Shown here in pieces: positions 2,886 through 21,548 of a stretch of DNA of 64,000 nt. The stretch comes from Aestuariibaculum sediminum. GTDB taxonomy: Bacteria > Bacteroidota > Bacteroidia > Flavobacteriales > Flavobacteriaceae. Each line of letters opens with the position of its first letter. Position 1 is the stretch's first letter. The stretch covers positions 248,001 through 312,000 of the forward strand of contig NZ_JACVXB010000003.1 in NCBI RefSeq assembly GCF_014596945.1, in the 5' to 3' direction. The notes beneath the pieces are model-generated. The model saw only the letters and a list, made by a program, of their open reading frames with translations, was not told the origin of the DNA and ran no database searches. The position numbers were made by a program, and so were the translations under genes.

Positions 2886-2900
2886 GTCGGGGTGGCAGGA
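2886..2900. repeat. Island distal attachment repeat (tRNA-Pro 3' end duplicate)
   Basis: The 15-bp word GTCGGGGTGGCAGGA is identical to the last 14 bases of the tRNA-Pro gene (acceptor 3' strand, discriminator and the end of the T stem) plus one flanking base. Similarity stops abruptly after it. There is no tRNA body here, so this is an attachment-site copy and not a second tRNA gene. Confidence 0.8.
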
Positions 2901-2959
2901 AGACCTTAAAACCCAACTTATGTAGTGAAATCAATAAGTTTCAAACTCTAATTAACTTT

Positions 2960-2971
2960 TGGTAACCGAAT
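2960..2971. repeat. Candidate integrase arm site, left end
   Basis: The word TGGTAACCGAAT occurs here, 60 bp inside the distal repeat. It occurs again in the same orientation near the integrase end, where a partial inverted copy is also present. Matched short repeats just inside both ends of an element are typical of arm-type binding sites of lambda- and CTnDOT-like integrases. The binding role is inferred. Confidence 0.5.
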
Positions 2972-3155
2972 GAGTAACTTATTTGATGAGAACTTTTGTT
3001 TGTATTTATACTAAAAATTCTACTTGCAATATTACAATTTTTAGATTTGAGTCTCAAACCTCATTCAAACATATATTTTTAAAACCAATATTGATAAATT
3101 GAAAAATTATCTATTCACTATAGCTTTCATTTATTTATTTTTGCGACTGATCATG

Positions 3156-3707
3156 TTAATATTTTTTTGATGGATACTCTCTATGCTTTGTTATATTATT
3201 AAAAGCCAAAGCAATTACAAATAATATTAATACCCCAGACAAAACGGGTGAAAACACATAATAATACCCTAAAGATTTTATTTTTTCAGTTCCAATAATT
3301 GCTATCAATGCTGTTGCTCCTCCCGGAGGATGTAAAGTCTTGGTAAATTGCATTAAAACAATAGAAATCGCAACTGCCAAAGGAGCAGTCAACCATATAA
3401 TTTCTGGAAATATTTTATAGATTGTAACACCGATAAGAGCAGGAATTAAATGACCTCCTATTAAATTCCTAGGTTGTGACAATGGGCTTCGAATAGCTCC
3501 AAAAATCAAAACACTTGTGGCCCCAAAAGAACCAATTAAAAAAACATTCTCCTCTTTCGATAAATAAAACGATTGAAAGAAAGCAATGACTCCTATACCA
3601 ATAAAAGCTCCCAAAAAAGACCAAAATTTTTCTGTATAATCGATAAGTGTTTCTCTATATAAAATATATCTGGATACTCTAATTCCTCTTTTTATCCTAG
3701 TTCTCAT
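3156..3707 (-). CDS. HPP family integral membrane protein, possible nitrite transporter
   Basis: A membrane protein of about 183 residues with four or five hydrophobic segments and the family signature LHPPGGATALIAIIGT. Plant and cyanobacterial HPP proteins have been implicated in nitrite transport. Here the gene is divergent from the copper nitrite reductase gene and shares its upstream region, which contains a 28-bp palindromic operator, so nitrite movement across the inner membrane is a reasonable guess. I take the ATG giving MRTRIKRGIRVSRYILYRET as the start. An in-frame TTG 30 bases upstream would add ten residues. The HPP family call is firm. The substrate is inferred from context. Confidence 0.75.
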   Translation of the reverse strand: MRTRIKRGIRVSRYILYRETLIDYTEKFWSFLGAFIGIGVIAFFQSFYLSKEENVFLIGSFGATSVLIFGAIRSPLSQPRNLIGGHLIPALIGVTIYKIFPEIIWLTAPLAVAISIVLMQFTKTLHPPGGATALIAIIGTEKIKSLGYYYVFSPVLSGVLILFVIALAFNNITKHREYPSKKY

Positions 3708-3831
3708 AGATGTATTAAGTGTGGTCTTTATTTTCAATTAAAAAGATGCAAAAATACTAAGTTTAAACTTTTAATAATTATTTTACTAATCAAATTCACC
3801 TAGAAAAGATTGAAATTTTAAACCTAAAAAA

Positions 3832-3859
3832 ACAATTAAGACAAATTTATCCTAATTAT
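3832..3859. promoter_or_regulatory. Candidate NsrR-like operator between HPP and nirK
   Basis: A 28-bp imperfect palindrome with arms ACAATTAAGACA and TATCCTAATTAT separated by 4 bp. It matches in spacing and core (AATTAAGA-N6-TATCYTAATT) the palindromes before the Rrf2 regulator gene and before norZ. It lies about 35 bp upstream of the nirK -7 element in the divergent HPP-nirK spacer, so it could serve both genes. Confidence 0.6.
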
Positions 3860-3893
3860 GATAAATATCATATTTTAAAAAAATAGTATATCA

Positions 3894-3901
3894 TAGTTTT
3901 G
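3894..3901 (+). promoter_or_regulatory. nirK promoter -7 element
   Basis: TAGTTTTG fits the Bacteroidetes -7 consensus TAnnTTTG and lies 20 bases before the nirK ATG. No good TTG -33 element sits at the normal spacing, which would fit a promoter needing an activator or subject to regulation by the operator just upstream. Confidence 0.5.
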
Positions 3902-3921
3902 AGAATACTAAATCACTAAAT

Positions 3922-5364
3922 ATGAAAACACAAATCAAATATTTACCCTTAATTATTACTTTATTTCTTTTTAGCTGCTTCAAAAATCAAGAAAAACATT
4001 ACGAAAACACTTCAAAAATTCCCGTAAGCAGAGAAATGGTTGCAGAATTAACCTCTCCTCCCAATGTACCTACACCTGTAGGACGGAGAAACGCAAAAAA
4101 GCTAATTGTTAAAATGGAAATTCTTGAAAAAGAAGGAGAAATAACCAATGATGTTCGTTATGTATACTGGACATTTGGAGGTACAGTTCCTGGTAGTTTT
4201 ATAAGAACTCGTGTTGGTGACGAAGTGGAATTTCATCTTCAAAATCATCCAGAGAACAAACTACCTCATAATATAGATTTGCATGCTGTTACAGGTCCCG
4301 GAGGAGGTGCTGAATCTTCTTTTGTAGCACCTGGACATGAGAAAGTATTTTCCTTTAAAACTTTAAATCCGGGTTTATATGTATATCACTGTGCAACAGC
4401 TCCTGTAGGTATGCACATAGCCAATGGTATGTATGGTTTAATTTTAGTTGAACCTGAAGGAGGTTTACCTGCTGTTGATAAAGAATATTATATTATGCAG
4501 GGTGATTTCTATACAAAAGGCGCTAATGGTGAACGCGGCTTACAACCTTTCGACATGCAGAAGGCAGTCGATGAAAAAGCTGATTATGTTGTATTTAACG
4601 GTAAAGTAGGCGCGCTAACCGGAGATAATGCAATAACAGCGAAAGTTGGTGAAACAGTGAGGCTTTTCGTAGGAAACGGAGGCCCTGGTTTGGTTTCCTC
4701 ATTCCATGTTATAGGAGAAATATTTGACAAAGTACATATTGAAGGAGGAAAACAAACCAATGAAAATGTACAAACAACTCTTATTCCCGCTGGTGGTGCA
4801 GCTATTGTTGAATTTAAAGTAGATGTTCCCGGAACATTTATTTTGGTAGATCACTCGATCTTCAGAGCATTTAATAAAGGCGCGTTAGGTATGCTTAAAG
4901 TAGAAGGCGAAAAAAATAAAAAAATATATTCTGGAGAAATTAGAGATGATATTTACCTTCCTGAGGGGCCGGGTATTCAGTCTATGCCGACAACCGATGA
5001 AATTGTAGAATCTGAGATTCCAGCCAAATCCTTTGATGAACAAATGAAATTTGGTAAACAAACCTATATGCAAACCTGTTTTGCTTGTCACCAATCAGAA
5101 GGACAAGGAATACCAAATGCCTTCCCTCCTTTAGCTAAATCTGATTACCTAAATGCCGATATTAATCGCGCAATAGATATTGTATTGCATGGAAAATCTG
5201 GGGAAATAACCGTTAATGGTGAAAAATACAATAGTGTTATGACCAAACAAATGCTCTCTTCAGAAGAAATTGCAAATGTATTAACTTATGTATACAACAG
5301 TTGGGGCAATTCTAAAAAAGTGGTAACGACATCTATGGTCGAAAATGTAAAAAACAAAAAATAG
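3922..5364 (+). CDS. nirK: Copper nitrite reductase with C-terminal cytochrome c domain
   Basis: Reduces nitrite to NO in the periplasm. The 480-residue product has a lipoprotein signal ending in LFSC (Cys19), two cupredoxin domains (about 60-330) and a c-type cytochrome domain (about 372-470). All copper ligands can be placed: type 1 His116, Cys157, His165 and Met170; type 2 His121, His156 and His311; and the catalytic pair Asp119 and His262. The haem motif is CFACH at 386-390, with Met in NSVMTKQ as a likely sixth ligand. Haem-tethered NirK proteins accept electrons through their own cytochrome domain. nirV, a SCO gene and a barrel gene follow with gaps of 7-12 bp or overlap, indicating one operon. 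The cytochrome domain closely resembles the small cytochrome c encoded outside the island after the sugar dehydrogenase gene. Confidence 0.96.
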
Positions 5365-5371
5365 CCAAGTC

Positions 5372-6151
5372 ATGAAAGATCATGTTTTCAGATTATTAAT
5401 TTTTATAATTATCAGTCAAACTAAATTGTTTGGGCAGTCTGAAAACATGGTCTTTATACAAGGTAGTCGATATATCCCACTTTACGGAAGAGATTCTACC
5501 GTTGTAGAAGTTAAAGATTTTGAAATGGACATTTTCCCTGTCACTAATGTCCAATTTTTAGAATTTGTTAAACAATATCCTAAATGGCAAAAATCGAAAG
5601 CCTTAAAATTATTTACTGATCAAAGCTATTTATTAAATTGGAAAAATGATTTTGAACTTAATGATACAGAAAAACAAAATAGCCCAGTAACTTATGTTTC
5701 CTGGTTTGCAGCTAAAGATTATTGTGAGTGCCAAGGCAAACGATTACCTACTATTGATGAATGGGAATACGCCGCTATGGCAGACCAAACCTCTCGTGAT
5801 GCTAGGCTTAAACCTGAGTATAACAAACAAATTCTAGCTTGGTACGAAACCCCTAAGACCAATGAAAATCTTATAGGTAAAAATCAAAAAAATGTTTGGG
5901 GAGTATATGATTTGCATGGTCTAGTTTGGGAATGGACACTTGATTTTAATTCTGTGCTCATTACTGGTGAATCGAGAAAAGATGTCGATAAAGACAATAA
6001 TCTATTCTGCGGAAGTGCAGCCGTTAACGCCACCGATTTAATGAACTATGCGGCCTTTATGCGTTATGCCATCAGGGGAAGCCTAAAAGCTAAATACGCT
6101 ATGAAAAACTTAGGGTTTAGATGTGTAAAAGATACAAAACCACAACCATGA
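5372..6151 (+). CDS. nirV: NirV-like formylglycine-generating-enzyme (SUMF1) family protein
   Basis: A secreted SUMF1/FGE-sulfatase-domain protein of 259 residues. A signal peptide is followed by the family landmarks: 'F.MD.FPVTN.QF.EFV', 'PVTYVSWFAAKDYCECQGKRLPTIDEWEYAA', 'NVWGVYDLHGLVWEWTLDF' and a C-terminal 'YAMKNLGFRCVKD'. NirV homologues are found directly after nirK in several denitrifiers. Their precise role in nitrite reductase maturation or function is unsettled. The gene starts 8 bp after nirK and its stop overlaps the start of the SCO gene by four bases (ATGA), which supports translational coupling. The family is certain. The nirV label rests on position. Confidence 0.85.
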   Translation: MKDHVFRLLIFIIISQTKLFGQSENMVFIQGSRYIPLYGRDSTVVEVKDFEMDIFPVTNVQFLEFVKQYPKWQKSKALKLFTDQSYLLNWKNDFELNDTEKQNSPVTYVSWFAAKDYCECQGKRLPTIDEWEYAAMADQTSRDARLKPEYNKQILAWYETPKTNENLIGKNQKNVWGVYDLHGLVWEWTLDFNSVLITGESRKDVDKDNNLFCGSAAVNATDLMNYAAFMRYAIRGSLKAKYAMKNLGFRCVKDTKPQP

Positions 6152-6858
6152 AAATTTTAAAAATAATTACAATTTTTGCGCTGCTCACATTCACTTTCAG
6201 CTCATGTAACTCAAATAAGTCAAAACAGGGTACGATACTTTACTTATGCCCAATGCAATGCGAAGGTAATAAAACATATAACCAACCTTTTAATTGTCCA
6301 ATATGTAAAATGGATTTACAACCATTGGAAACAAGTGCTTCAAAAATTGAAAATACTGATGGTATTTCAGAAGAATCAATTTTCAATTTAACTTCTAATT
6401 GGAACACCGAAGAAGGTGAGCAGATTCTTTTGAAGGATTTAAAAGGAAAAACGCTGGTTATGGTCATGATTTATACTTCATGTAAAGCCGCCTGCCCGCG
6501 TTTAGTTGCAGATATGCGGAATATTGAGGCACAAATTCCTGATAACAAAATAGACCAGCTCAACTTTGTATTAATTAGTATAGATTCAAAAACAGATACG
6601 CCCGAACGTCTGAAATCCTTTGCCATTGAAAATTATATGGATGACCCGCAATGGACATTCCTTCAAGGTACTGAAACTGGGGTTAGGGAATTCGCAAATG
6701 TATTAGCCGTTAAATACAAACAAATATCTCCAATAGACTTTTCGCATTCTAATATTATAAGTATTTTTAATCCTAAAGGCGAATTAATACATCAACAGGA
6801 AGGCTTAGGAGTGGATAACACTGAAACAATCGATGCCATCCTTAGACTAACCAATTAA
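6148..6858 (+). CDS. SCO1/SenC copper chaperone with heavy-metal-binding domain, lipoprotein
   Basis: A lipoprotein of about 236 residues (lipobox ending FSSC, Cys20). Residues 31-60 form a small heavy-metal-binding domain with CPMQC and CPICKMDLQP motifs. The rest is a thioredoxin-fold SCO domain with the copper-binding TSCKAAC pair (Cys112 and Cys116) and a conserved histidine in DFSHSN near residue 203. SCO proteins deliver copper to, or act as thiol reductants for, copper enzymes. Inside a nirK operon the likely client is NirK. I chose the ATG overlapping the nirV stop, because an upstream in-frame start would bury the signal peptide behind nine charged residues. The combination of the two metal-binding domains in one protein is notable. 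Confidence 0.88.
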   Translation: MKILKIITIFALLTFTFSSCNSNKSKQGTILYLCPMQCEGNKTYNQPFNCPICKMDLQPLETSASKIENTDGISEESIFNLTSNWNTEEGEQILLKDLKGKTLVMVMIYTSCKAACPRLVADMRNIEAQIPDNKIDQLNFVLISIDSKTDTPERLKSFAIENYMDDPQWTFLQGTETGVREFANVLAVKYKQISPIDFSHSNIISIFNPKGELIHQQEGLGVDNTETIDAILRLTN

Positions 6859-6870: not shown

Positions 6871-8130
6871 ATGAAAAACTTTATAGCAATTCTATTTACA
6901 GGAGTTGTAATGACCTGTTACGCTCAGGAATTTGAAATTTCGGCAGAATTAAGACCTCGTTATGAATATAGGCATGGCTATAAAACGTTAATTCCAAACG
7001 ATGCTGAAGCTGCAAATTTTATATCCCAACGAACACGTTTAAATTTAAAATTTACTTCTGAAAAAATTCAGGCCTTTGCTGCCCTCCAAAACATAAGGGT
7101 TTGGGGAGACATTGCTACCTTATCTGCTTCTGACAAGAACGGAACAGCTGTTCATGAAGCCTGGGCTAAACTCTACCTGACATCTAACTTTTTTTTAAAA
7201 TTAGGGAGGCAAGAAATTGTTTATGATGACCAAAGGATTTTTGGAAATGTGGACTGGGCACAACAAGCCAGAAGTCATGATGCCCTTATAGCATCTTTTA
7301 AAGGAACTAATAACGGACATTTAGATTTTGGATTCGCATTAAGTTCTGAGGAAGAAAGTCTGTTTAAAACAAATTATGAAGTAAACAATTATAAAAACTT
7401 TCAATATTTATGGTATCATAATCAACTTAAAAACACAAGTATAAGTTTATTATTTTTAAACCAAGGACTTAATTACACTGATAATCTTGAGCAAAAAATA
7501 AGTTATAACCAAACCATAGGAGCCAGACTAACTTATAATAAAGATTCATTTGGTACTGATGCTTCCGCATACTTGCAAACTGGTAAAATTGCTAGCTCTC
7601 ATTTAAACGCATACAATATTGCTGCAAATGTATATTATGATTTTACAAATCATTTTAATCTGGCAATAGGTTTTGAATATCTTTCAGGAACAAACAACAA
7701 TTCTAATGCTTCAAAAATAAGCTCATTCAATCCTTGGTATGGAACCAATCATAAATTTAATGGTTTAATGGACTATTTTTATGTTGGAAATCATATAAAT
7801 TCTGTTGGTTTGACAGATATCAATGCCTGTTTATTTTTTCATAAAAATAAATTCAGTGGTAAACTTATGCCTCATATTTTTTCTGCTGCTGCCAAAGTGT
7901 TTGATGACTCTGGAAATGAAATGAACCAATCTTTAGGTACAGAATTGGATTTGGTTTTCACTTATAATTGGATTAAGGATGTTAATTTTCAGTTTGGATA
8001 CTCTCAGTTATTTGCTACTAATACGATGTCAATCCTAAAGGGAGGTAATAATAATGCTACTAATAACTGGGCTTGGTTTATGATAACCATAAAACCTACC
8101 CTATTCAAAAATTCAATTTTCAGTAATTAA
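6871..8130 (+). CDS. Alginate-export-like outer-membrane beta-barrel protein
   Basis: A 419-residue protein with a signal peptide (cut after CYAQ) and a predicted beta-barrel rich in alternating aromatic and polar strands. The N-terminal part (SAELRPRYEYRHGY, then SQRTRLNLKF and KLGRQEIVYDDQRIFGNVDW) matches the alginate-export (AlgE-like) barrel family, which is widely used in Bacteroidetes for unrelated solutes. It is the last gene of the nirK-nirV-SCO operon, 12 bp after SCO. A role as an outer-membrane channel for nitrate, nitrite or copper is inferred from context only. It converges on the next gene across a spacer of about 105 bp with no obvious hairpin. Confidence 0.75.
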   Translation: MKNFIAILFTGVVMTCYAQEFEISAELRPRYEYRHGYKTLIPNDAEAANFISQRTRLNLKFTSEKIQAFAALQNIRVWGDIATLSASDKNGTAVHEAWAKLYLTSNFFLKLGRQEIVYDDQRIFGNVDWAQQARSHDALIASFKGTNNGHLDFGFALSSEEESLFKTNYEVNNYKNFQYLWYHNQLKNTSISLLFLNQGLNYTDNLEQKISYNQTIGARLTYNKDSFGTDASAYLQTGKIASSHLNAYNIAANVYYDFTNHFNLAIGFEYLSGTNNNSNASKISSFNPWYGTNHKFNGLMDYFYVGNHINSVGLTDINACLFFHKNKFSGKLMPHIFSAAAKVFDDSGNEMNQSLGTELDLVFTYNWIKDVNFQFGYSQLFATNTMSILKGGNNNATNNWAWFMITIKPTLFKNSIFSN

Positions 8131-8235
8131 CTATAATATTAACCCTTCACCAATGTTATTTTAAAGTCATTTATAACGTTTATTTTCTATTTAAACATAT
8201 TTTAAACCACCTATAATCTAATCAACTTAAAGACT

Positions 8236-9420
8236 TTAATTTACTGCCGTAGACTTAATATAATGTATTAGAATGAAAAGAATACCTAAAGGTAATAAGC
8301 CACTAAACAAAAATAATAATAAATAATAGTTTGAAATTACCCCTATACCAAGGTAAAACCTAACACCTTGAATTAATAAAATTATTTCAGTCAGTACAAA
8401 TCCTGAAAGAAAACTATACAGACCTAATTTTAATGACGCTGAGGGTTTCTGATTACTATAAAGAAACGCAAAAAGAAAACCTGTGATCACTCCCAGCATC
8501 ACTAAATGAATAAAACCAATAACAAAGTTACGATGCATGAAAACAACTTCGGAAAATTCAGGATTCAGCGTTACTCCTTGGAAAAGAATTTTCAGTGCAA
8601 AACAAAAGACGCTAAAATAATACAGCGTGACAATGAGTTTAGATTGTCCCTTTAAGGCTTTTTTCATCTTGAATTTTATCAGTTTTATAAACAAATACAG
8701 GGTTAGTAATTGAAGTAGAACCCCTAATATATTTATATAAATTAAAATCGGATGCGGAGCAAACCATTGCACAGGTAAGGCAAAAGTAAGTATTGTTGAT
8801 ATAATCAATAATTTAAAAAAGTTTTGAAATAGTATAGAATCTTCAATTCTAACTAAATAAAATAACAAAGCTAAAACTGCAATTAAAAACCATCCATTAA
8901 ATTGAAAGTGTAAAAAGAATTGAATAGCAATCTGGTAAAACGCCGAAGCCTGGCCTAATACCCCTACAGCTGGCCCCAAACACCACACTCCTATAGTAGA
9001 AATCAGCATAAACACTAAGGCTATTTTTAGCAATAATAGAGTCGTTACAGATGTTACCTTATGATATTTCCATACTAAATGCACAAAGTAATATGAACAA
9101 AAAATGTGTAGGGTTGAAAAAGTAATGGAAATAGCTGCATAACCCTGAAAAGGAAAACTAACCATCATACCAATAACAGCAATTTCAGTCACCCAGAATA
9201 GTCTATTATATATCGGCCGTTTATCGGGAATAAAATAATAAACAATAAAAGCATATAGTATTAAATACACCCAACCTAACATGGCCACATGTGAATGGGC
9301 ATGCGTTAAAAACCGATAATTTAATCCTATGGGGTCTAAAAACGAATAACGAAGCGCCACCCCCATTAAGGCAGCAATCAGAAAATTTATCAGACAAACG
9401 ATAATTAGTTTTTTTTGCAT
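8236..9420 (-). CDS. Polytopic membrane protein, haem-copper-oxidase/NnrS-like
   Basis: A 394-residue protein that is almost entirely hydrophobic, with about 12 membrane segments. Histidines at positions 40, 42 and 44 (LTHAHSHVAMLGWVYL) and further His residues within membrane segments resemble the haem-binding helices of cytochrome oxidase subunit I and NnrS-like proteins. Such proteins are often encoded in bacterial nitric-oxide clusters. NnrS relatives are linked to NO stress resistance, with unknown chemistry. It lies downstream of ric and norZ on the same strand, separated by a hairpin. I cannot assign a reaction. The placement in an NO-reduction cluster is the main clue. Confidence 0.6.
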   Translation of the reverse strand: MQKKLIIVCLINFLIAALMGVALRYSFLDPIGLNYRFLTHAHSHVAMLGWVYLILYAFIVYYFIPDKRPIYNRLFWVTEIAVIGMMVSFPFQGYAAISITFSTLHIFCSYYFVHLVWKYHKVTSVTTLLLLKIALVFMLISTIGVWCLGPAVGVLGQASAFYQIAIQFFLHFQFNGWFLIAVLALLFYLVRIEDSILFQNFFKLLIISTILTFALPVQWFAPHPILIYINILGVLLQLLTLYLFIKLIKFKMKKALKGQSKLIVTLYYFSVFCFALKILFQGVTLNPEFSEVVFMHRNFVIGFIHLVMLGVITGFLFAFLYSNQKPSASLKLGLYSFLSGFVLTEIILLIQGVRFYLGIGVISNYYLLLFLFSGLLPLGILFILIHYIKSTAVN

Positions 9421-9448
9421 AAAAATGTGTAAAAGACTTAAAATTAAG

Positions 9449-9510: not shown

Positions 9511-10233
9511 TTAACAAAATCTATTTTCTAGTCTCTCGGCTGCTGGAAATAAAATATTGTTCTCTAAATGGATATGTAAATGCAAATCTTCCTCAAATTC
9601 CTGGAGCATCGCAAATGTCACTCGATACGTATTACAAGCATCGGTTGGTGGCGTGTAATTATCTGTAATCTCAGCAATTTTTCTAAATCTCCCCCCTTCA
9701 TTGTCGTGCTCCTGCATCATCATGGCAATTGGGTTCTTTACTGTACCAAATCCGGGAGCCTCTATTGCGGTATTGCCTAATTCAGCTTTAACTAATTTCT
9801 TTACAAAAGGGAATAATACCAATTCTTCTTTTTTCATGTGCTGAGATAATTCTCCTGCCGATGCTGTGAACAACTCATTTATTTCAAAAAGTTCTGGATG
9901 CCTTTCGCCATGTACCCGGCATAGTTTATCTAAAAACTGCTTTAAAATTGGAGTTTTCTCTTCAACATAACGATGATGTTTTTTTTCAATATAATCTACA
10001 AGCAAATCTAAAGGCCAGGATTTATAATCGATGGTTTGGTTGCCTTGTGTATTTAAAACCTGCTCCAAACGATGCACTAATTCATTGGTTTCAATGCCAT
10101 TTTTTTCACATACATCTTCCAGAGTTCTATTACCTCTGCAGCAAAAATCAATGCCATATTGTGTAAAAACTGCAGCTGTTCTAAAATCTTCAGCAACAAA
10201 CTCTCCTACTTGTTTTTGTGTTATCGTACTCAT
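9511..10233 (-). CDS. ric: RIC/ScdA/YtfE-type iron-sulfur cluster repair di-iron protein
   Basis: Repairs iron-sulfur clusters damaged by NO or oxidative stress in the cytoplasm. The 240-residue product has the N-terminal DUF542/ScdA domain (residues 1-60, YGIDFCCRGNRTLEDVC with the Cys-Cys pair) and a C-terminal hemerythrin-like four-helix domain. The latter carries spaced His and Glu ligands (KKHHRYVEE, RVHGERHPELF, HMKKEELVLFPF, MMQEHDNEGGRFR, LHIHLENNILFP). The length is normal for the family. It starts 11 bp after norZ and should be co-transcribed with it, which fits protection during NO turnover. Confidence 0.92.
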   Translation of the reverse strand: MSTITQKQVGEFVAEDFRTAAVFTQYGIDFCCRGNRTLEDVCEKNGIETNELVHRLEQVLNTQGNQTIDYKSWPLDLLVDYIEKKHHRYVEEKTPILKQFLDKLCRVHGERHPELFEINELFTASAGELSQHMKKEELVLFPFVKKLVKAELGNTAIEAPGFGTVKNPIAMMMQEHDNEGGRFRKIAEITDNYTPPTDACNTYRVTFAMLQEFEEDLHLHIHLENNILFPAAERLENRFC

Positions 10234-12621: not shown

Positions 12622-13056
12622 TTAACGTCGTAAAAAGGTATCTCCTTGTTTAATATCTAAAGCCAAATCTTCTAAATTTGTTGATTCTAACATTGTCTTA
12701 AGTTCATCTCTAACGACTTTAAATTTATCATGCATTGGACATGGACGATCTTCGTCACAAGCATGTAAACCAAGTCCACAACCTTTATAGATACTGTCTC
12801 CATCAATAGCATCAACTATATCAGCTAATTTAATTTCTTTTATTCGATGTTTGTCCATTTCAAAACCTCCATAGGCTCCCTTTACAGAACTTACAATATT
12901 ATTTCTTACCAAAGCCTGTAAAATCTTAGCTGTAAATGCTGTTGGAGAATCAATTTCTTCCGCAATTTCTTTAGGACTCACTCTTCTTCCCTCAAAAGAA
13001 TTAAGTGCTATAAAAATGGATGCCCTAATGCCGTATTCGCAAGCTTTTGAAAACAT
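12622..13056 (-). CDS. Rrf2-family transcriptional regulator, NsrR-like
   Basis: A 144-residue winged-helix Rrf2 protein. The N-terminal half holds the DNA-binding wing (SSVKGAYGGFEM). The C-terminal half has three cysteines at 93, 100 and 106 (CGLGLHACDEDRPC), placed almost as in the [4Fe-4S]-binding NsrR proteins that sense NO. It sits between the nap operon and norZ-ric, has palindromes immediately upstream, and resembles a classical NO-responsive regulator. Autoregulation is likely, since two overlapping palindromes lie within 65 bp of its ATG and a TATATTTG -7-like element lies between them and the start. An IscR- or RsrR-like role cannot be excluded from sequence, but the context favours NO sensing. 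Confidence 0.88.
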   Translation of the reverse strand: MFSKACEYGIRASIFIALNSFEGRRVSPKEIAEEIDSPTAFTAKILQALVRNNIVSSVKGAYGGFEMDKHRIKEIKLADIVDAIDGDSIYKGCGLGLHACDEDRPCPMHDKFKVVRDELKTMLESTNLEDLALDIKQGDTFLRR

Positions 13057-13080: not shown

Positions 13081-13120
13081 AATTAAGATGCCTTAATTAA
13101 GATAAAAATATCTTAATTAA
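13081..13120. promoter_or_regulatory. Double palindromic operator upstream of the Rrf2 regulator gene
   Basis: The right-hand site is a perfect 28-bp palindrome, TTAATTAAGATA-AAAA-TATCTTAATTAA (13093-13120). The left-hand site, AATTAAG-ATGC-CTTAATT (13081-13098), overlaps it. The half-site AAGATA resembles the AAGATG half of proteobacterial NsrR boxes. The pair lies just upstream of a TATATTTG element (13074-13081, minus strand) before the regulator gene, so feedback control is likely. It overlaps the last codons of the NrfD-like gene. Confidence 0.7.
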
Positions 13121-14388: not shown

Positions 14389-15516
14389 TTAATCCATAAA
14401 ATACCAGAACTTAGGTTCGGTACCCAAATCTTCTTTTAGTCTGAATACTTTTTTATTTTCAAGCACCCATCGAATGGTACTATTAGGATCTAATAAATTC
14501 CCAAATATGCGGGCGCCCGTTGGACAGGCCTCTACACAAGCTGGATTTTTTCCTTCTCTTGAGCGCTGCACACAAAAGGTACATTTTTCCATTACCCCTT
14601 TTTTACGCATTCTATTTCCTAAATAATGCTGATTATGATTTACCTCTTCTTCTGGCACTTCGGGTTTACTCCAATTAAATCGGCGACCATCATACGGGCA
14701 AGCAGCCATACAATAACGACACCCCACACACCAGTCGTAATCGACAACCACTAAACCATCATCTTCTCGCCAGGTGGCTTGTACAGGACATACCTCAACA
14801 CAAGGCGGATTATCGCAATGAAAACACTGCGTTCCCAAATAAAAATGACCTTCAGCCGGAACTTCATGATAATAGTTATCATCAGCTTCATCAAATTTTA
14901 ATCCTTCTCCGTCTTTCATTTCATGAATACGGATATATTGCATTTGAGAATTTCTATCTTGATTATTTTCTTTTACACAGGCGCTCACGCAATCCATATA
15001 CCCCTGACATTTAGAAATATTAAAGGCGTACCCAAACAATACATCTTCTTCAGCATTTTTAGAAGACATACTAATTGTTTTTCCTGTACGCAGTTGATAA
15101 GAACGCACCAATCTATCTACAGTATTCTTTTTCTCATCATCGGTCATTAATTTATAATTCCCTTTAAACTGCTCCTCCCAATCAATTTGTGCTTTTTCTT
15201 TACTTTCATCGCTACTTAACATACTACAGGAGGTATTAACAGCTCCTGCCCCAATCAATAAACTTGCTGCCAACTTTCTAAAAGCAGTACGGCGATCCAT
15301 TTTTACATCGAAAACCTGATCAAATCCATCCTTTTCTCTTTCATCTCCAATAGAAGCATTCACGGCAGCATGATAAAATTCTTCTTCAGACATTTCTGCA
15401 TCATTTGAATGAGAACCACAACCACCCGAGGTTTTACCGCAACCGCAAGTACCCGAATCATCATTTTGTTTTCTGCTCAGATTTAATGAAAACCATTTTT
15501 TGTTACTTCTACTCAT
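14389..15516 (-). CDS. NrfC/PsrB-like 4x[4Fe-4S] ferredoxin subunit with Cys-rich N-terminus
   Basis: A 375-residue electron-transfer subunit that should pair with the NrfD-like protein. Sixteen cluster cysteines are visible in four groups: CQGYMDCVSACVKEN, CFHCDNPPCVEVCP, CVGCRYCMAACPYD, and CTFC followed by CVEACP. Two unusual parts come first: a glycine-cysteine-rich stretch at residues 22-36 (CGCGKTSGGCGSH) and, 40 residues later, a twin-arginine-type signal (MDRRTAFRK, residues 73-81) ending in a lipobox-like NTSC at Cys97. So the mature protein may be a Tat-exported lipoprotein with a cytoplasmic or cleaved 96-residue leader. The assigned ATG gives the full leader. A start at Met73 would give a conventional Tat precursor. 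Confidence 0.87.
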   Translation of the reverse strand: MSRSNKKWFSLNLSRKQNDDSGTCGCGKTSGGCGSHSNDAEMSEEEFYHAAVNASIGDEREKDGFDQVFDVKMDRRTAFRKLAASLLIGAGAVNTSCSMLSSDESKEKAQIDWEEQFKGNYKLMTDDEKKNTVDRLVRSYQLRTGKTISMSSKNAEEDVLFGYAFNISKCQGYMDCVSACVKENNQDRNSQMQYIRIHEMKDGEGLKFDEADDNYYHEVPAEGHFYLGTQCFHCDNPPCVEVCPVQATWREDDGLVVVDYDWCVGCRYCMAACPYDGRRFNWSKPEVPEEEVNHNQHYLGNRMRKKGVMEKCTFCVQRSREGKNPACVEACPTGARIFGNLLDPNSTIRWVLENKKVFRLKEDLGTEPKFWYFMD

Positions 15517-15545
15517 ACCTTAACTATTTTAAACTTCTAATGCAG

Positions 15546-16172
15546 CTACTCTCTTTCTTTTACTTTTTGTGTATTGAAACGCGCCGGCCATCTACTTTCA
15601 AAATGTGGCTGATGCGGATTATGACAATTCACACACGTCATAGATGCTCGTGGTGGTGCCCAGCCTCCAATTCGTTTACCATGCGCTCCGCCTTTCCAAT
15701 CTTCAAATTGTTTTGAATGGCACTGGCTACATAGATTATAACTATTATCAAAATCGATGCTCATTCCTGTTACACTGCGCAACTCATCCATATTGGACGG
15801 ATTATGACATGTTACACAATTCATAGCTTTCTCGTTTGCATGTACTATCTTAATATCCCAATGCGCCTTTTTAATATCGCCTTCTTGCATCTCTGCCAAT
15901 GGTTTTGAATGACATTCGGTACAAGCATATAATTTAATCTGATTTTTTCTTTCTGGTATTAAGAAGGTATGTCCACCTTCTGAAATCAGAATCGTATCTA
16001 CCCCTTCCAAATAGTTCTCTGATGATAAAGATACTCCTTGATAATGCTCTCCTTCAGCCTCAATTTTCTCCATAACACCATGGTATTTATCTTCATGTTT
16101 ACATGAAAAAAACACCATGCAAAAAACAATAAGACATAAGCTTCTATTTACAAAAAGGCTACTACTCATCAT
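15546..16172 (-). CDS. Tetraheme c-type cytochrome lipoprotein
   Basis: A 208-residue protein with a lipobox ending FFSC (Cys24) and four haem motifs: CTECH (84-88), CVTCH (119-123), CSQCH (148-152) and CVNCH (180-184). The spacing and the APPRASMTCVNCHNPHQPHF ending suggest a multihaem electron carrier, unlike NrfA, which needs a CxxCK. It overlaps the NapB-like gene by 11 bp and precedes the NrfC-like gene, so it probably carries electrons from the NrfCD-like module to the NapB-like protein at the periplasmic face of the inner membrane. I do not know a named family for it. The cytochrome nature is certain. Confidence 0.85.
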   Translation of the reverse strand: MMSSSLFVNRSLCLIVFCMVFFSCKHEDKYHGVMEKIEAEGEHYQGVSLSSENYLEGVDTILISEGGHTFLIPERKNQIKLYACTECHSKPLAEMQEGDIKKAHWDIKIVHANEKAMNCVTCHNPSNMDELRSVTGMSIDFDNSYNLCSQCHSKQFEDWKGGAHGKRIGGWAPPRASMTCVNCHNPHQPHFESRWPARFNTQKVKERE

Positions 16173-16854
16173 AATTACTTATTCTTTTAAATTCCCCAAT
16201 ATCTCTCGTTTCTTTATTATTAGGCACATGACATTGTCTGCAATTTACACGTTCTGGATGTGTAACACGAATCTCTTTTGGAGCTGCTGGCCCTGCATGA
16301 CAAGCCAGACAATTTTCATGCATTTGAATTTGATGCGGAATAACTGGAGGACTACCATCTAAAGCATTATTTACACCCACTTCGGGAGCTTTTATTTTAT
16401 GAAAATTAGTTTCTTCAAACAAAGATTCTGTTACCTGCGCTACATGACATTGACGACAATTCACCATTTCAGGATGTGGCGTTACTGGAGCATAAGCATT
16501 AAATTTATCGACAAAACCTCCATTTTGATGGCATTTTAAACAGATATTTTCACCCATACCACGCTCACTGGCCACCGGATGCGGAATACTGGGTGGTGCA
16601 CCGTGAAATGCTCTGTTGTTATAAAATGTTTCTAATGTACGCTGATGATTTTCATCGACTGGCATATTGACGTAATCTAAAGCAAATTTTGAACGCTCAA
16701 AAACCCCAATCTCTGAAGGGATTATTGGCATTGGATTTTCATTTTCAATTGGAATGTAAGCTTCCTCCTGCCCTTCACGATAACTAATATTCCAGACCGC
16801 AACAAATGCCAGAAATAATATTAGAAACAAAGATATTATACCTATTCGCTTCAT
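16162..16854 (-). CDS. napB: NapB-like tetraheme cytochrome with internal duplication
   Basis: A 230-residue periplasmic or membrane-anchored cytochrome with one N-terminal hydrophobic segment (6-22). Two NapB-like dihaem modules occur in tandem. The first (about 84-138) reads 'HGAPPSIPHP', CLKCH (105-109), 'TPHPEMVNCRQCHV' (haem at 133-137). The second (about 167-210) reads 'GSPPVIPHQ', CLACH (182-186), 'THPERVNCRQCHV' (haem at 205-209). Standard NapB has only one such dihaem module and delivers electrons to NapA. Its ATG overlaps the napA stop by four bases, which supports tight coupling with NapA. I call it napB on this basis, noting the doubled haem count. Confidence 0.8.
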   Translation of the reverse strand: MKRIGIISLFLILFLAFVAVWNISYREGQEEAYIPIENENPMPIIPSEIGVFERSKFALDYVNMPVDENHQRTLETFYNNRAFHGAPPSIPHPVASERGMGENICLKCHQNGGFVDKFNAYAPVTPHPEMVNCRQCHVAQVTESLFEETNFHKIKAPEVGVNNALDGSPPVIPHQIQMHENCLACHAGPAAPKEIRVTHPERVNCRQCHVPNNKETRDIGEFKRISNYDE

Positions 16855-19178
16855 ACTTTTTCTACTTTAACGGCACATTTTTTATAATCGGGTTGCTTTG
16901 AAATCGGACAAAAAGCATCGAGTGTTACATCGTTTATTAACATATTTTCATCAAAGAAAGGCACAAATACCTGATTGCGCTCCGGAACGCCACGCTCATT
17001 AACCGATGCTGGTAAAATAATTTCACCGCGTCGCGTCGTTAATTTAATTCGATCACCCGTTTGTATCTGCATTTCTTTGGCTTGCTCCGGATTCAACTCC
17101 ACATACGCATGTGGCATGGCTTTATGCAACACTGGAATTCTTCTCGTCATAGATCCTGTATGCCAATGCTCTACAACACGTCCGGTGCATAACCAGAACG
17201 GGTAATCATCATCAGGAATTTCAGGAGCCGGTTCGTATGGTCGTTGCCATATAATAGCCTTTCCATCCGGGTTTCCATAAAAATGAAATTGCTCACCATT
17301 ACTACAAGCCGGATCGTAATCGGCATTAAATCGCCATTTTGTAGATTTCCCATTCACATAAGGCCATTGTGCTCCAGGTTCGGCTTTTAAAACTTCTAAA
17401 GGCGCCATAGCGTGCTTATTACCTTCATGATGCCTTCTATACTCATTGTAAATTTCTTCTATATGAGTATCTTCATTATAATAGAATTGTTTTTCGTAAC
17501 CTAAACGTTTAGCCACCTCAACAATTTGCCAGGTATCACTCATAGCTTCACCTGAAGGTTCTATCATTTTTTCAAAATATTGAGTACGACGCTCCGAATT
17601 TCCATACATCCCCTCCCGTTCTATCCACATGGCAGAAGGCAAAATTACATCTGCAATATCGGTTGTTGGTGTTGGGTAAATATCTGAAACCACAATAAAT
17701 CGACCTTCTTTTTCACAAGCATCGCGATAACGCTTCAGTTTTGGCATAGTCACCATAGGATTCGTTACCTGAATCCACATAAACTTAATATCTCCCCTAT
17801 CTAAAGCTCGAAACATCTCTACGGTATGGTAAGATGGTTTTGCTGGAATATTTTCTGCTGGAACATCCCAAATTTTTGCGGCAAACTCTCTATGTTCTTT
17901 ATTTGTTACAACGCCGTGAGGTAATTTGTGTGTTAGCGTCCCAACTTCTCGAACTGTACCGCAGGCACTGGGTTGTCCTGTTAACGAAAACGGACTATTA
18001 CCCGGTTCTGAAATTTTCCCTGTAAGTAAATGGATATTATAAACTAAGTTATTAATCCAAGTCCCTCTGGTATGCTGATTCATTCCCATACACCACAGAG
18101 ACATAACCTTCTTATTAGGATCTCCATAATAAGAAGCCATGTATTTTATATCTTTAGCTGAAACCCCTGAAATTTTTGCTACTTTTTCAGGCGTATAATC
18201 TTGTAAAAAAGTTTTAAAGGCTTCAAAAGTGATTCCCTCTGGCTTATCGTCAAAGCTGTAATGATCTTCTAAGCCATAGCCCATATTGGTAAGTCCCTTT
18301 TTAAAATTACAATGCTTTTCAACAAAAGACTTATTCACCCAGCCATTATTAATAATTTCATAGCAAATCGCATTAGCCACTGCTAAATCTGTTTGTGGCT
18401 GAAAAATAATAGACCTATCTGCCGCCATACTGGTACGCGTTGTACGCGTTGCAAAATCGATAATCTTAACTCCGCGTTTTAATCGCTGATCTAACAACCT
18501 AGAGAATAATACCGGATGCATTTCTGCCATATTATTACCCCAAAGCACAAAAACATCAGCATGATCTATATCATCATAGCAGCCCATGGGCTCATCAATA
18601 CCAAAAGAAGTCATAAACCCGGTAACCGCACTCGCCATACACAAGCGCGCATTAGCTTCTACATTATTTGTACCAATACACCCTTTAAATAGCTTAGAGG
18701 CTACATATCCATCAGGAATAGTCCACTGTCCCGAACCGTAAATAGATACTGCATCTTTTCCATGGTTACTTATAGTCTCTTTCATTTTAGAAGCAATTAA
18801 ATCAAGTGCTTCTTTCATAGAGGTTTCTACATACTTCCCGTTTTTCTTAATCAAGGGTTTTGTTAATCGATCTTTACCATAAATAGATATCACAGAATGG
18901 TAGCCTTTAACACAACACAAGCCTTTGTTAACAGGAGATTTAGGGTCTCCTTTTACCGCAACTGCTTTGCCGTTATCAATACCAATTAAAACACCACAAC
19001 CTACACCGCAAAATCTACAGGGTGCCTTTTTCCAATCTAAATTTGCATTTTCAGGAAGATTCCTTTCTTGTTCTTCCGCAAATAAAATCCCTGGAAACAT
19101 AGTGGCTGCAGCCGTCATAGCCGACATAACGGCCATTTTTTTTATAAATTCACGTCGGTTGGTTAAGGAGGTATACAT
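16851..19178 (-). CDS. napA: Periplasmic nitrate reductase catalytic subunit
   Basis: Reduces nitrate to nitrite in the periplasm with a bis-MGD molybdenum centre. The 775-residue product has a twin-arginine signal (NRREFIKK at 7-14, followed by a hydrophobic run to about 34), a [4Fe-4S] motif with Cys54, Cys57, Cys61 and Cys88 or Cys89, and the molybdenum-ligating Cys180 in ANARLCMASAV. Downstream come the expected molybdopterin-binding segments (for example DIYPTPTTDIADVILPSAMWIEREGMYGNSERR, and the C-terminal GRVVEHWHTGSMTRR). Length and landmarks match NapA rather than assimilatory NasA or NarG. napD lies 2 bp upstream. Confidence 0.95.
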   Translation of the reverse strand: MYTSLTNRREFIKKMAVMSAMTAAATMFPGILFAEEQERNLPENANLDWKKAPCRFCGVGCGVLIGIDNGKAVAVKGDPKSPVNKGLCCVKGYHSVISIYGKDRLTKPLIKKNGKYVETSMKEALDLIASKMKETISNHGKDAVSIYGSGQWTIPDGYVASKLFKGCIGTNNVEANARLCMASAVTGFMTSFGIDEPMGCYDDIDHADVFVLWGNNMAEMHPVLFSRLLDQRLKRGVKIIDFATRTTRTSMAADRSIIFQPQTDLAVANAICYEIINNGWVNKSFVEKHCNFKKGLTNMGYGLEDHYSFDDKPEGITFEAFKTFLQDYTPEKVAKISGVSAKDIKYMASYYGDPNKKVMSLWCMGMNQHTRGTWINNLVYNIHLLTGKISEPGNSPFSLTGQPSACGTVREVGTLTHKLPHGVVTNKEHREFAAKIWDVPAENIPAKPSYHTVEMFRALDRGDIKFMWIQVTNPMVTMPKLKRYRDACEKEGRFIVVSDIYPTPTTDIADVILPSAMWIEREGMYGNSERRTQYFEKMIEPSGEAMSDTWQIVEVAKRLGYEKQFYYNEDTHIEEIYNEYRRHHEGNKHAMAPLEVLKAEPGAQWPYVNGKSTKWRFNADYDPACSNGEQFHFYGNPDGKAIIWQRPYEPAPEIPDDDYPFWLCTGRVVEHWHTGSMTRRIPVLHKAMPHAYVELNPEQAKEMQIQTGDRIKLTTRRGEIILPASVNERGVPERNQVFVPFFDENMLINDVTLDAFCPISKQPDYKKCAVKVEKV

Positions 19179-19180
19179 AC

Positions 19181-19444
19181 TTAATTACTTTTAGGTGTAT
19201 CGAATCCTGAAACCATTGCTAAAAGCTTTAAGCTTTCAATGGCCTCGATTTTTTCTTTTAATATATCGTCTTCGGTATTGTTATTTGTTTCAGTAACTAC
19301 GATTACCAAATCATTATTTTCAGCAGGAATGACTTCGCAACTACTAATAGAACTAAGTTCATGAACTAGCTCTTGTTTTTTTCCTTGGTGCGGATGAGCG
19401 AGGTAACTTTTAATTGGCATAATGCATCTATTTAAATAGGACAT
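19181..19444 (-). CDS. napD: NapD-like maturation chaperone
   Basis: A small protein (87 residues) ending 2 bp before napA. NapD binds the NapA Tat signal and guides cofactor loading. The product has the ferredoxin-like alternation expected for NapD: 'MPIKSYLAHP', then 'LVHELSSISSCEVIPAENNDLVIVVTE', and 'EAIESLKLLAMVSGFD'. An internal ATG at residue 9 (MPIKSYLAHPHQGKK) would align better with NapD proteins and may be the true start. Sequence similarity is modest, and position is strong support. As first gene of the operon it follows a non-coding region that must hold the nap promoter. Confidence 0.8.
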   Translation of the reverse strand: MSYLNRCIMPIKSYLAHPHQGKKQELVHELSSISSCEVIPAENNDLVIVVTETNNNTEDDILKEKIEAIESLKLLAMVSGFDTPKSN

Positions 19445-20020
19445 AAAAGTCCTCTAAGTTAATCTAAAAAAATTAATTTTCATCATCTATTTTCAATTTA
19501 CAATCAATATAAATAAATATAAATCAACTCTTTAAATAAAACACATATAAACTTAAACAAAAATATGTGAAGTAATTACTAATCCATTTTAGACAATTTA
19601 GTTATAAGGCAACCTTTGATTTACCATAAAACACATTTATTTTCAGTAATTTTAATCGAGAGTTTTAAAACGGGTATTTAGAAAATTAAAAGAATAAACC
19701 TCATCATATATTTAATCTAAAAAATTCTCTATATAAGCGTGATTGTAAAACTAAGGGGGGTAAAGCAAGAGGGTAACACGCTAAAGCGATGTTACGGTTT
19801 TCATTCCTCTCGGAAGTCCTATAAATACTAAGATTTTAAAATTTGCTTTATTTTATAGTCTCTCATTATTTCGTAAAAAATGCGCTCAGACCAGTAAAAT
19901 CAACGATTTTTTTACTAAAAAATGAGTTTTATGAGCTCATTTATGCTTTGATTAATAATTCTTCTTTATTTTCATAAGCATCCTTTTTTAATTTATAAAG
20001 ATGTATTTTATATAAAAAAC
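19445..20020. other. Non-coding island interior between napD and the integrase
   Basis: About 575 bp with no supported gene. It must contain the leftward nap promoter. A CAAAAATA at 19558-19565 reads TATTTTTG on the minus strand and could be its -7 element, but no -33 TTG lies at normal spacing. A G-rich patch (aaggggggtaaagc) and several short inverted repeats lie near 19735-19810. I see no 28-bp NsrR-like palindrome here. Confidence 0.4.
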
Positions 20021-20075
20021 AATTTCCTTTCAATACACTCCCGTGACCTTTCGAGGAGCGCATTGAAAGGAAATT
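20021..20075 (-). terminator. Rho-independent terminator of the integrase gene
   Basis: A perfect 14-bp inverted repeat (AATTTCCTTTCAAT and its complement) encloses a 27-nt arm that can pair further (CTCC with GGAG). On the minus strand it is followed by GTTTTTTATA. It lies 36 bp after the integrase stop. Confidence 0.75.
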
Positions 20076-20111
20076 CATTCTAAGACTAAAAAATATTGTT
20101 TGAGGCAATTT

Positions 20112-21332
20112 CTAAATCTCAGCTGTTCGTTTTTCCAGCTTTTGATGTAGACTTCCCATATCTTCACTAATTTTACTCTCTACTACTCTTGCATAAATCT
20201 GAGTCGTTGATAATTTAGTATGTCCTAATAATTTTGATACCGTTTCAATCGGCACTCCGTTAGAAAGCGTTACAGTTGTAGCAAAGGTGTGCCTAGCTAC
20301 ATGAAAAGTTAAATTCTTTCTAATTCTACATACATCAGCAATCTCTTTTAAATAAGAATTCAATTTCTGATTAGAAATACCTGGAAAAATGGTTTTCTTC
20401 GAGACAGATTCAGGATGACTTTCATACTTTTTAATAAGTGCTAAAGCTTTTTGTAATAAAGGTATTTTAATAGGAACATTGGTTTTCTCTCTTTGTGAGT
20501 GTATCCAAAGCTTACCATCAATACCTAAACACAAATCATTAGGAGTTAATTGCATTACATCTCCGTACGACAGCCCCGTATAGCAGGCAAACACAAAAAG
20601 ATCCTTTATCAATTGAAGTCTGGCAATATCAAAAGATTTATTTTCTAAAACTTCTAATTCTTCAGCCGTTAAAAAGCAACGCTCCTTTTTATCATATTTG
20701 GCTTCAAACTTCATAAAAGGGTCTTTGACTATCCATTCCATTTTAAAAGCTAAACTTACCAGTTTTCTTAAGCGTTCGATATGCTTCATAACTGTATTAT
20801 TGCCCATATTATCCTGAGCTTTTAAAAACCGCTCAAAATCAATAATGAATTGATAATTTAACTCAGATAGATACATATCGGTTGTACCATATTTCAATTT
20901 TAAGAACTTAAAAATGTATTTGTGTGTTGTAAAATAGTTCTTTTGGGTACCCCACCGCAAAGTGGACTTCATATGGATATTATGATAATCAATAATATCC
21001 GTTAATGCCTGACGAGAGTCATCCTCTCCAAAGTATTGGGATTTAATAATACTGGAAGTAATGAGTTTACCATCTCTTTTTAATTTTTGATAAACCTCGA
21101 AGAGATCGACATTAACCTGCTTTAGAAATTCATTGAGTAATTTAGCTTCATCACCTAAGCCTTTTAGTCGACTTTTATTAGAATCCCATTCCGAAACAAG
21201 GACTTTTCGTTTTAAGGATAGTTCGGCTCGTTTACCATTAACTGTAATACGAGCATAAAGGGGTGCTTTTCCGTTTTTGATACTGGATTGTTTCAGCCAA
21301 AACAGAACACTGAAAGTTTGTGTGGTTTTCAT
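20112..21332 (-). CDS. int: Tyrosine recombinase/integrase, IntDOT-like
   Basis: Catalyses site-specific integration and excision of the island. The 406-residue protein has an arm-binding domain (about 5-90), a SAM-like core-binding domain (about 105-205) and a catalytic domain (about 215-390). Active-site residues seen are Lys283, His344 and Arg347 (FHVARHTFATT), His371 (LLGHTKLSTTQ) and the nucleophile Tyr380 (TQIYARV). The first catalytic Arg is missing: the motif reads YTGLSYGDV with Ser255, as described for the CTnDOT integrase. Downstream comes its terminator. Upstream are the arm-site-like repeats and the tRNA-Pro target. Length is normal and the frame is intact, so it may be functional. 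Confidence 0.93.
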   Translation of the reverse strand: MKTTQTFSVLFWLKQSSIKNGKAPLYARITVNGKRAELSLKRKVLVSEWDSNKSRLKGLGDEAKLLNEFLKQVNVDLFEVYQKLKRDGKLITSSIIKSQYFGEDDSRQALTDIIDYHNIHMKSTLRWGTQKNYFTTHKYIFKFLKLKYGTTDMYLSELNYQFIIDFERFLKAQDNMGNNTVMKHIERLRKLVSLAFKMEWIVKDPFMKFEAKYDKKERCFLTAEELEVLENKSFDIARLQLIKDLFVFACYTGLSYGDVMQLTPNDLCLGIDGKLWIHSQREKTNVPIKIPLLQKALALIKKYESHPESVSKKTIFPGISNQKLNSYLKEIADVCRIRKNLTFHVARHTFATTVTLSNGVPIETVSKLLGHTKLSTTQIYARVVESKISEDMGSLHQKLEKRTAEI

Positions 21333-21385
21333 ACACTTTTGTTTTTAAAATTGAACATTAGAAACAAAAGCCAAATCAAATTGCT

Positions 21386-21424
21386 CGGTTACCTTTTTGA
21401 CGTTTTTAAATGTGGTAACCGAAT
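21386..21424. repeat. Candidate integrase arm sites, right end
   Basis: CGGTTACC at 21386-21393 and TGGTAACCGAAT at 21413-21424 form an inverted pair, 54 bp upstream of the integrase ATG. The second copy is identical over 12 bp, and in the same direction, to the site near the island's left end. Confidence 0.5.
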
Positions 21425-21476
21425 AGGTCAATTTTTATTTAAATGAATTCAAATAATATGAATCCCTAAAAACGAC

Positions 21477-21510
21477 AAAACCTTGATAATCATTAAATTA
21501 CCAAGGTTTT
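21477..21510. terminator. Hairpin downstream of tRNA-Pro, island-borne
   Basis: An inverted repeat with 14-bp arms (AAAACCTTGATAAT and ATTACCAAGGTTTT, one mismatch) and a CATTAA loop. It has A/T runs on both sides, so it can act bidirectionally. It lies inside the island, 24 bp past the 3' end of tRNA-Pro, and probably replaces the original tRNA terminator now found at the far end of the island. Confidence 0.65.
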
Positions 21511-21533
21511 ATTACTTATTGATCTCTGATCTA

Positions 21534-21548
21534 GTCGGGGTGGCAGGA
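21534..21548. repeat. Island proximal attachment repeat within tRNA-Pro
   Basis: GTCGGGGTGGCAGGA covers the 3' terminus of the minus-strand tRNA-Pro gene and is identical to the copy at the left edge of the island. Integration at the 3' end of a tRNA keeps the tRNA intact, which is seen here. Confidence 0.8.

Follow-up and report, generated by a model that had tools for sequence, protein, structure and literature searches.

A mosaic genomic island with nap, nirK and qNOR genes at tRNA-Pro in Aestuariibaculum sediminum

Why denitrification is so patchily distributed among bacteria has long been debated as a puzzle. According to passages of the respective papers, mobile denitrification clusters are known in Thermus (PMC5748679), denitrification genes of Pseudomonas are assigned to predicted genomic islands (PMC10494350), and in a Castellaniella metagenome-assembled genome (MAG) the nos operon lies in a predicted island, a copper-resistance island that replaces this operon at a tRNA-Arg being described as well (PMC11046850). 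The corresponding passages on Flavobacterium columnare describe denitrification and, separately, genomic islands, without linking the two (PMC5395568). No tRNA-integrated denitrification island of flavobacteria is described in the titles and abstract openings of the literature searched, subscription journals and preprints being outside its scope. The locus presented here is an 18.6-kb region of Aestuariibaculum sediminum comprising nap, nirK and qNOR genes, predicted to reduce nitrate to nitrous oxide (N2O). It lies in a 64,000-nucleotide stretch of DNA, called the window below (G000:C15:248001-312000, placed by whole-genome search; G000 is the source genome). With a probability of roughly 90%, this region is an integrative genomic island that moved recently and whose integrase uses a 15-bp core at the 3' end of tRNA-Pro(TGG).

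The island resembles the NCE element, as presented in PMC6282519, in that genes for respiratory reduction of nitrate, nitrite and nitric oxide (NO), together with their own regulators, lie on horizontally acquired clusters. NCE, however, is an island of 30 kb that lies in a variable part of a megaplasmid and encodes a nar-type reductase, the nitrite and NO genes being located in a separate nic cluster, whereas here nap, nirK and qNOR are found together within 18.6 kb, with one integrase and at a tRNA gene. Tycheposons, like this island, combine a border tRNA with a tyrosine recombinase and metabolic cargo; the likeness is compared on the tRNA and the recombinase only, and the cargo of the island is, unlike their nutrient cargo, a respiratory pathway (passages of PMC10872708). 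The Pseudomonas and Castellaniella islands carry denitrification genes, as here, but were assigned by prediction software, and the passages concerned report neither a core repeat nor an empty/filled pair for an island with nir, nor and nap together (PMC10494350, PMC11046850).

Borders of the island and its occupied and empty sites

The initial annotation had placed the island between two copies of a 15-bp repeat equal to the tRNA-Pro 3' end, with an intact tyrosine integrase adjoining the tRNA, short repeats that match each other a little inward of either end, and all the nap, nir and nor genes in between, and each of these traits was found again. The 15-mer GTCGGGGTGGCAGGA occurs at 2886-2900 and 21534-21548 and nowhere else in the window when up to 2 mismatches are allowed; 0.03 matches are expected in the shuffled window and 0 of 100 shuffles give two, which rules out a chance repeat. 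The right copy belongs to an intact tRNA-Pro, besides which Rfam gave no match. The adjoining integrase, encoded by an intact open reading frame (ORF) with three integrase domains, is probably active at present. We take its arm-binding, SAM-like and catalytic architecture to be like that of the IntDOT-type integrative elements of Bacteroidota, from which the island differs in that no conjugation genes were found in it. Box I of the integrase reads TGLSYGDV, without the usual arginine, a feature presumably shared by IntDOT-type integrases. TGGTAACCGAAT is present in direct orientation at 2960 and 21413, and GGTAACCGA at 21385 is an inverted partial copy of it; these candidate arm sites would be bound by the integrase. 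Among the ORFs listed for window positions 1-26000, no nap, nir or nor gene lies outside the repeats, and NapA (threshold 1e-200) and NirK (1e-50) each give a single match in the whole G000 genome.

Five genomes of the genus (G000 to G004) were compared at the tRNA-Pro of the island: two carry the island, one is empty and two differ. In G004 a terminator hairpin, the core and the island follow one another at this tRNA-Pro, with 3.65 kb of extra sequence left of its left core. In G002, which has the same tRNA-Pro and the same right-hand TonB gene, the hairpin is joined directly to tRNA-Pro, i.e., the site is empty. The flanks of these two genomes are 95.9% identical over 15.0 kb on the left and 98.0% over 2.06 kb on the right, by which they are sister genomes at this locus. 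The empty site in a close relative by which a tRNA-targeting integrative genomic island is recognized is, as foreseen, found in the sister of an occupied genome, and the same island sought at tRNA-Pro elsewhere is the near-identical one of G004. These findings suggest that the gene set for nitrate-to-N2O respiration can be gained as one block, since a related species has a near-identical copy at the same spot and its close sister is empty. An assembly artefact is unlikely, because the same junctions are present in G004 within a single contig. In G003 a different integrase (51%, with one internal stop codon; L051:1446-2964, G003:C118) occupies the orthologous tRNA-Pro, so other islands use this site too, while the G001 contig continues from it into other sequence and then ends.

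Recent transfer, mosaic structure and stacked segments

The G000 and G004 islands are 95.9% identical over 18.9 kb, but the identity is unevenly distributed. In a profile of 39 bins of 500 bp, 21 bins are at 99.4-100%, those at 8000-13500, the NO-reductase region, at 80.7-97.0% and those of the integrase at 88.6-94.0%. The right flank (25600-45500) is mostly 77-80% identical between the two genomes, apart from a stretch of 0.66 kb at 90%; identities with the remaining three relatives go up to 77-82%, and to 90-91% in this stretch, and the first gene to the right of tRNA-Pro is at 67% between G000 and G004. Since over half of the island is almost identical in spite of such flanks, it moved recently between species, and the horizontal acquisition as an island proposed in the initial annotation is borne out by this copy together with the empty G002 site. 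The interruption of the near-identical blocks by diverged ones indicates that recombination reshaped the island during or after the transfer.

Gene by gene, ten G000-G004 pairs are at 99.6-100% (HPP, NirK, FGE, SCO, porin, FeS, the two cytochromes, NapA and NapD), while NrfD is at 94.9%, the unassigned membrane protein at 91.7%, RIC at 86.8%, qNOR at 89.7%, Rrf2 at 91.4% and the integrase at 90.1%. RIC and qNOR DNA of G004 is nearer to G002 and G003 (91.5-94.9%) than to G000, whereas Rrf2 and the unassigned membrane protein are nearer to G000. FGE pairs G000 with G002 (87.3%) and G001 with G003 (88.1%), SCO and Rrf2 pair G001 with G003 (92.7% and 92.6%), and NirK is 82.3% identical between the sisters G002 and G004 and 99.7% between distant members. 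Module exchange between islands would be the simplest reading of these pairings. The qNOR protein tree (10 sequences) groups G004 with G000 and not with G002 and G003, and the qNOR gene, which may be mosaic, varies by bin; a donor of the G002/G003 type for the G004 qNOR, suggested by DNA identity, is not suggested by the protein tree.

Each of the five genomes has one nirK (E <= 1e-50), located at tRNA-Pro-1 in two, at tRNA-Pro-2 in two and at tRNA-Arg in one. At the second tRNA-Pro of G003 the HPP-nirK-FGE-SCO-RIC-qNOR-Rrf2 block has no nap and is accompanied by a 93% integrase; a search of the whole G003 genome at 1e-200 gave no NapA. The second tRNA-Pro of G001 has an array of ca. 149 kb with the nirK-to-nap set at its left edge. 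In G002 the nirK block is situated in a 38.3-kb interval between exact 38-bp repeats including the tRNA-Arg 3' end, with a different (53%) integrase and no nap nearby (the rest of that genome was not searched for nap); G004 matches G002 at 99% up to the tRNA-Arg end and not beyond it in the 18.5 kb fetched. A second integrase at this tRNA-Arg (G002:C5:486391, L204:3392-4615), identical to the first in 392 of 407 residues and 38 kb away from it, opens a stretch with a BNR-repeat (sialidase-like) protein and, by appearance, a SusC/SusD-like pair. In another genus, Muricauda sp. CP2A (L097:10001-15273) has nirK-FGE-SCO, a 48% integrase and the same 15-bp tRNA-Pro core in a row; a second core is not in the fetched stretch.

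The NapA tree (18 rows, with G001 twice), weak because midpoint-rooted, places the island NapA as sister to that of another genus (G173), apart from G001, and the nap operon DNA is 85.4% identical to G173 and ca. 80% to G001. The nirK-nor block and the nap operon appear to have separate histories, since no nap accompanies the G002 and G003 nirK blocks and NapA groups with another genus in this weak tree; nir-nor would circulate mostly within the genus, and the nap operon of the island probably came from another source. The acquisition of the whole pathway in one step, as initially proposed, is not upheld, given these histories, the mosaic NO-reductase region (81-97%) and an integrase at ca. 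90%. Among 397 genomes of the family (even draws), relatives of the integrase (E <= 1e-120) are present in 99 and of NapA (E <= 1e-200) in 68. A close relative on a plasmid was considered and rejected: of 47 plasmid records with NirK matches 44 are below 60% and 3 at 60-80%, one covers at least 80% of the query, and the best identity among the 15 matches listed is 65.6%. Close relatives of the integrase on phages or plasmids were rejected likewise, all 13 phage and 39 plasmid records being below 60%.

The sequence left of 2886 was expected to be the plain chromosome; the repeat boundary is there, but instead of an ancestral flank a stacked 27-kb segment lies behind a third core. This copy, at C15:223817, directly follows an intact phosphomannose isomerase gene (Pfam PMI_typeI_cat) with its terminator, and the ca. 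27 kb between it and 250886 (window 2886) comprise GH88, SusD, GH43, GH115, GH92 and GH28 genes and a hybrid two-component regulator. No relative of the integrase was found in C15:212000-250990 (tblastn E <= 1e-3). The 310 bp at 2601-2910 match, at 97% identity, the stretch G000:C15:223.5-223.8k, which holds the end of the intact gene, its terminator and the core. The 3% diverged isomerase 3' end, which closes this polysaccharide-utilisation segment (G000:C15:223817-250885, L208, L062; into window 1-2885), hints at import of a donor flank. The array at tRNA-Pro thus has three tandem cores over 45.7 kb, the left part of the window being cargo, and with so many cores it might in principle be open to the integrase to excise one of the two parts or both.

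The same chassis is also found with other cargo. At the second tRNA-Pro of G004 a 93% integrase and matching ends belong to an element of 26.2 kb that carries SusC- and SusD-type proteins, an alpha-L-fucosidase, a trehalase, an MFS transporter and a LacI regulator. In G002 an element that shares the core and has an integrase at 93% encodes a DUF5712 protein, which we take to have a role in mobilisation, and a type IV coupling protein; its mobilisation-type genes are present at 94-97% in G000 as well, on a contig with tRNA-Pro and a 73% integrase. For the three mobilisation-type proteins tblastn (E <= 1e-3) gave nothing in the island, in the rest of the window or in C15:212000-250990; these genes are therefore not stacked at the island's tRNA-Pro in G000.

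Copies of a conserved hairpin element (L201:8777-8847, L056:16674-16805 and window 20006-20077) lie beside integrases, and in G002 one borders the nirK block. Both G002 and G003 have, adjoining the hairpin, a module of 3.2 kb that is TonB-receptor-like by appearance and in opposite orientation relative to the nirK block. A repeat of ca. 150 bp scattered in the genus (L201:4541-4715, with copies in L204, L056, L051 and L066) is also found at the left edge of the G003 nirK block.

Gene content of the island

The 16 genes listed in Table 1 take up 90% of the island interval. NapDA, together with two multihaem cytochromes, one of them NapB-like, and a DsrOP-like quinol module, would reduce nitrate to nitrite, the cytochrome-fused NirK nitrite to NO, and qNOR NO to N2O; a protein for the repair of NO damage and an Rrf2 regulator would complete the cargo. 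The best PDB match of NirK is 2zoo, and qNOR, for which NCBIfam gave no match, scores up to 824.5 bits with PDB nitric oxide reductase chains. Both the nitrite and the NO reductase of a denitrification cluster are present, while no nosZ was found among the island genes scanned, so that the set does not amount to complete denitrification to N2; the NosZ model TIGR04246 gave nothing over its cut-off in the five genomes, and PF18793 matched no control either, so that these two models do not prove the genomes to lack nosZ. The partner genes of napA are those of the DsrP-type subunit, the DsrO-like protein and two cytochromes with four CxxCH motifs each, one NapB-like and the other (15546) with a weak NapC/NirT-domain match of 23.4 bits, below the cut-off; no NapGH-type protein was identified in the scans of the island genes. 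The same six genes (13117-19444) are found together in 15 of the 15 napA neighbourhoods fetched (chosen from the 68 genomes with a match; 18 regions were fetched, 3 being array stretches without nap), and this layout is therefore characteristic of the family, not peculiar to the island. No relaxase or conjugation gene was found among the 16 genes (ORFs of at least 70 aa). Two names were dropped: 'NnrS-like' for the 8236-9420 protein, a label without database support, and NsrR for the Rrf2-family protein, which scores 30.3 bits with the NCBIfam NsrR equivalog against a cut-off of 182.

Table 1. Features of the island and of its borders, in positions of the window
Positions	Strand	Feature	Evidence or remark
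2601..2885	+	Duplicated phosphomannose isomerase 3' fragment and terminator hairpin (2853-2885)	End of the 27-kb left segment
2886..2900		Left attachment (att) core	15 bp
2960..2971	+	Candidate integrase arm site TGGTAACCGAAT, left	Putative function
3156..3737	-	HPP-family membrane protein	Pfam TM_HPP
3922..5364	+	NirK, copper nitrite reductase with C-terminal cytochrome c	TIGR02376 356.7 bits, cut-off 296.3
5372..6151	+	FGE-sulfatase-like protein adjoining nirK	Pfam
6121..6858	+	SCO1/SenC protein with heavy-metal-binding domain	Pfam
6871..8130	+	Outer-membrane alginate-export-like porin	Pfam
8236..9420	-	Membrane protein, family unassigned	No Pfam or NCBIfam match
9511..10233	-	RIC/YtfE-type iron-sulfur repair protein	TIGR03652 248.7, cut-off 204.7
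10245..12491	-	qNOR, single-chain nitric oxide reductase	Pfam NorB_cytochrome_c-like and COX1
12622..13056	-	Rrf2-family regulator	TIGR00738 86.5, cut-off 73.3
13117..14343	-	NrfD/DsrP-type membrane subunit (presumed quinol side)	NF045798 419, cut-off 350; Pfam NrfD
14389..15516	-	4Fe-4S electron-transfer subunit, DsrO-like	NF045797 197.2 bits, just below cut-off 200; Fer4_11
15546..16172	-	Multihaem cytochrome c, 4 CxxCH	
16162..16854	-	NapB-like multihaem cytochrome c, 4 CxxCH	Pfam NapB 41.6 bits, cut-off 25.1
16851..19178	-	NapA, periplasmic nitrate reductase	TIGR01706 957.2, cut-off 930.55
19181..19444	-	NapD-like	Pfam NapD 20.3 bits, below cut-off 28; adjoins napA
20021..20077		Strong hairpin beside integrase	dG -15.7, z -4.5 for 20000-20100; copies in related islands
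20112..21332	-	Tyrosine integrase, intact ORF, adjoins tRNA-Pro	Arm-DNA-bind_5, Phage_int_SAM_5, Phage_integrase
21385..21424		Candidate right arm sites	GGTAACCGA inverted at 21385, TGGTAACCGAAT direct at 21413; putative function
21477..21510		Terminator-like hairpin supplied by the island to tRNA-Pro (putative role)	14-nt arms, 93% complementary
21534..21548		Right att core, tRNA-Pro 3' end	
21534..21609	-	tRNA-Pro(TGG), intact	Rfam tRNA 69.2 bits

Alternative explanations and significance

Several observations weigh against an island carried by its own integrase. The G+C content gives no contrast (34.6% in the island, 34.0% to its right), and composition as a sign of foreign origin was dropped. 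No core, with up to 2 mismatches, is present at the left edge of the G001 array and none in G003 except for the tRNA copy, so that some arrays are decaying, and mosaicism and the duplicated isomerase fragment show the locus to have been shaped by homologous or illegitimate recombination as well. The five NirK sequences of the genus group with one MAG (support 0.83) in a FastTree tree of 84 sequences (79 of the 80 nearest NirK loci fetched, the record of G002 itself being omitted, and the five genomes), from which the nirK block appears to circulate mostly within the genus. Finally, a related integrase lies within the fetched stretch (up to 10 kb per side, at least 19 kb in total in 65 of 80; tblastn E <= 1e-15 over at least 45% of the query) at 1 of these 80 loci, that of G002 being just outside the range, and the cluster is therefore not visibly on such islands in most of the family. 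The single clade, as well as the FGE gene lying within 400 bp downstream of nirK in all 80 loci, would also be expected of a vertically inherited chromosomal denitrification cluster that happens to be near a tRNA; this is nevertheless highly improbable in view of the empty site, the three different tRNA locations and a NirK much more similar between distant members than between sisters.

The mosaic itself could mean that the cargo moves mainly by homologous recombination of imported DNA between resident tRNA arrays, founded by the integrase, which is now rarely used. The diverged blocks interrupting the identical ones, the G004 RIC and qNOR DNA nearer to G002 and G003, the different pairings of FGE, SCO and Rrf2 and the diverged isomerase fragment all agree with it, but the core junctions are exact at the filled G004 site, as is the core at the empty G002 site, G000 and G004 both keep an intact-length integrase beside an intact core, and the qNOR protein tree joins G004 with G000; we regard this explanation as tentative and rather doubtful. 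Slightly less probable still, and on the whole unlikely, is that a larger unit takes the island along as a passenger, stacked segments that share the core being excised jointly and then moved in cis by a mobilisable element. The three tandem cores of G000, the two nearly identical integrases at the G002 tRNA-Arg and the G002 element with mobilisation-type genes, also present in G000, speak for such accretion, whereas in G000 these proteins are encoded on another contig, away from the array. The preferred explanation remains an island integrated by its own enzyme, which would recombine the 15-bp core with the tRNA-Pro(TGG) 3' end, identical to it, so that the tRNA stays intact and receives a replacement terminator. 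The island would most likely excise as a circle and enter new cells with a helper, possibly the related element with mobilisation-type genes in the same genome, or by DNA uptake, and would afterwards be reshaped by homologous recombination with resident islands.

It is an even bet whether, beyond this, the one-integrase chassis at tRNA-Pro is a general carrier of metabolic programmes, such as denitrification and polysaccharide use, whose islands stack, swap modules one gene at a time and may move in cis via mobilisable relatives; with one nirK block per genome on different islands, denitrification would then act as interchangeable cargo and not as a lineage trait. What is surprising is the combination of a clean filled/empty pair, near-identical cargo in distant species, a mosaic structure and a chassis common to a sugar-utilisation island. 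The locus offers a compact nitrate-to-N2O unit that is filled and empty in sister genomes and little changed in a more distant species, and whose transfer is directly testable. A closely related integrase with matching ends carrying a sugar-utilisation set links the spread of respiration with that of carbon use, and, as the unit ends at N2O on present evidence, its spread could raise N2O output.

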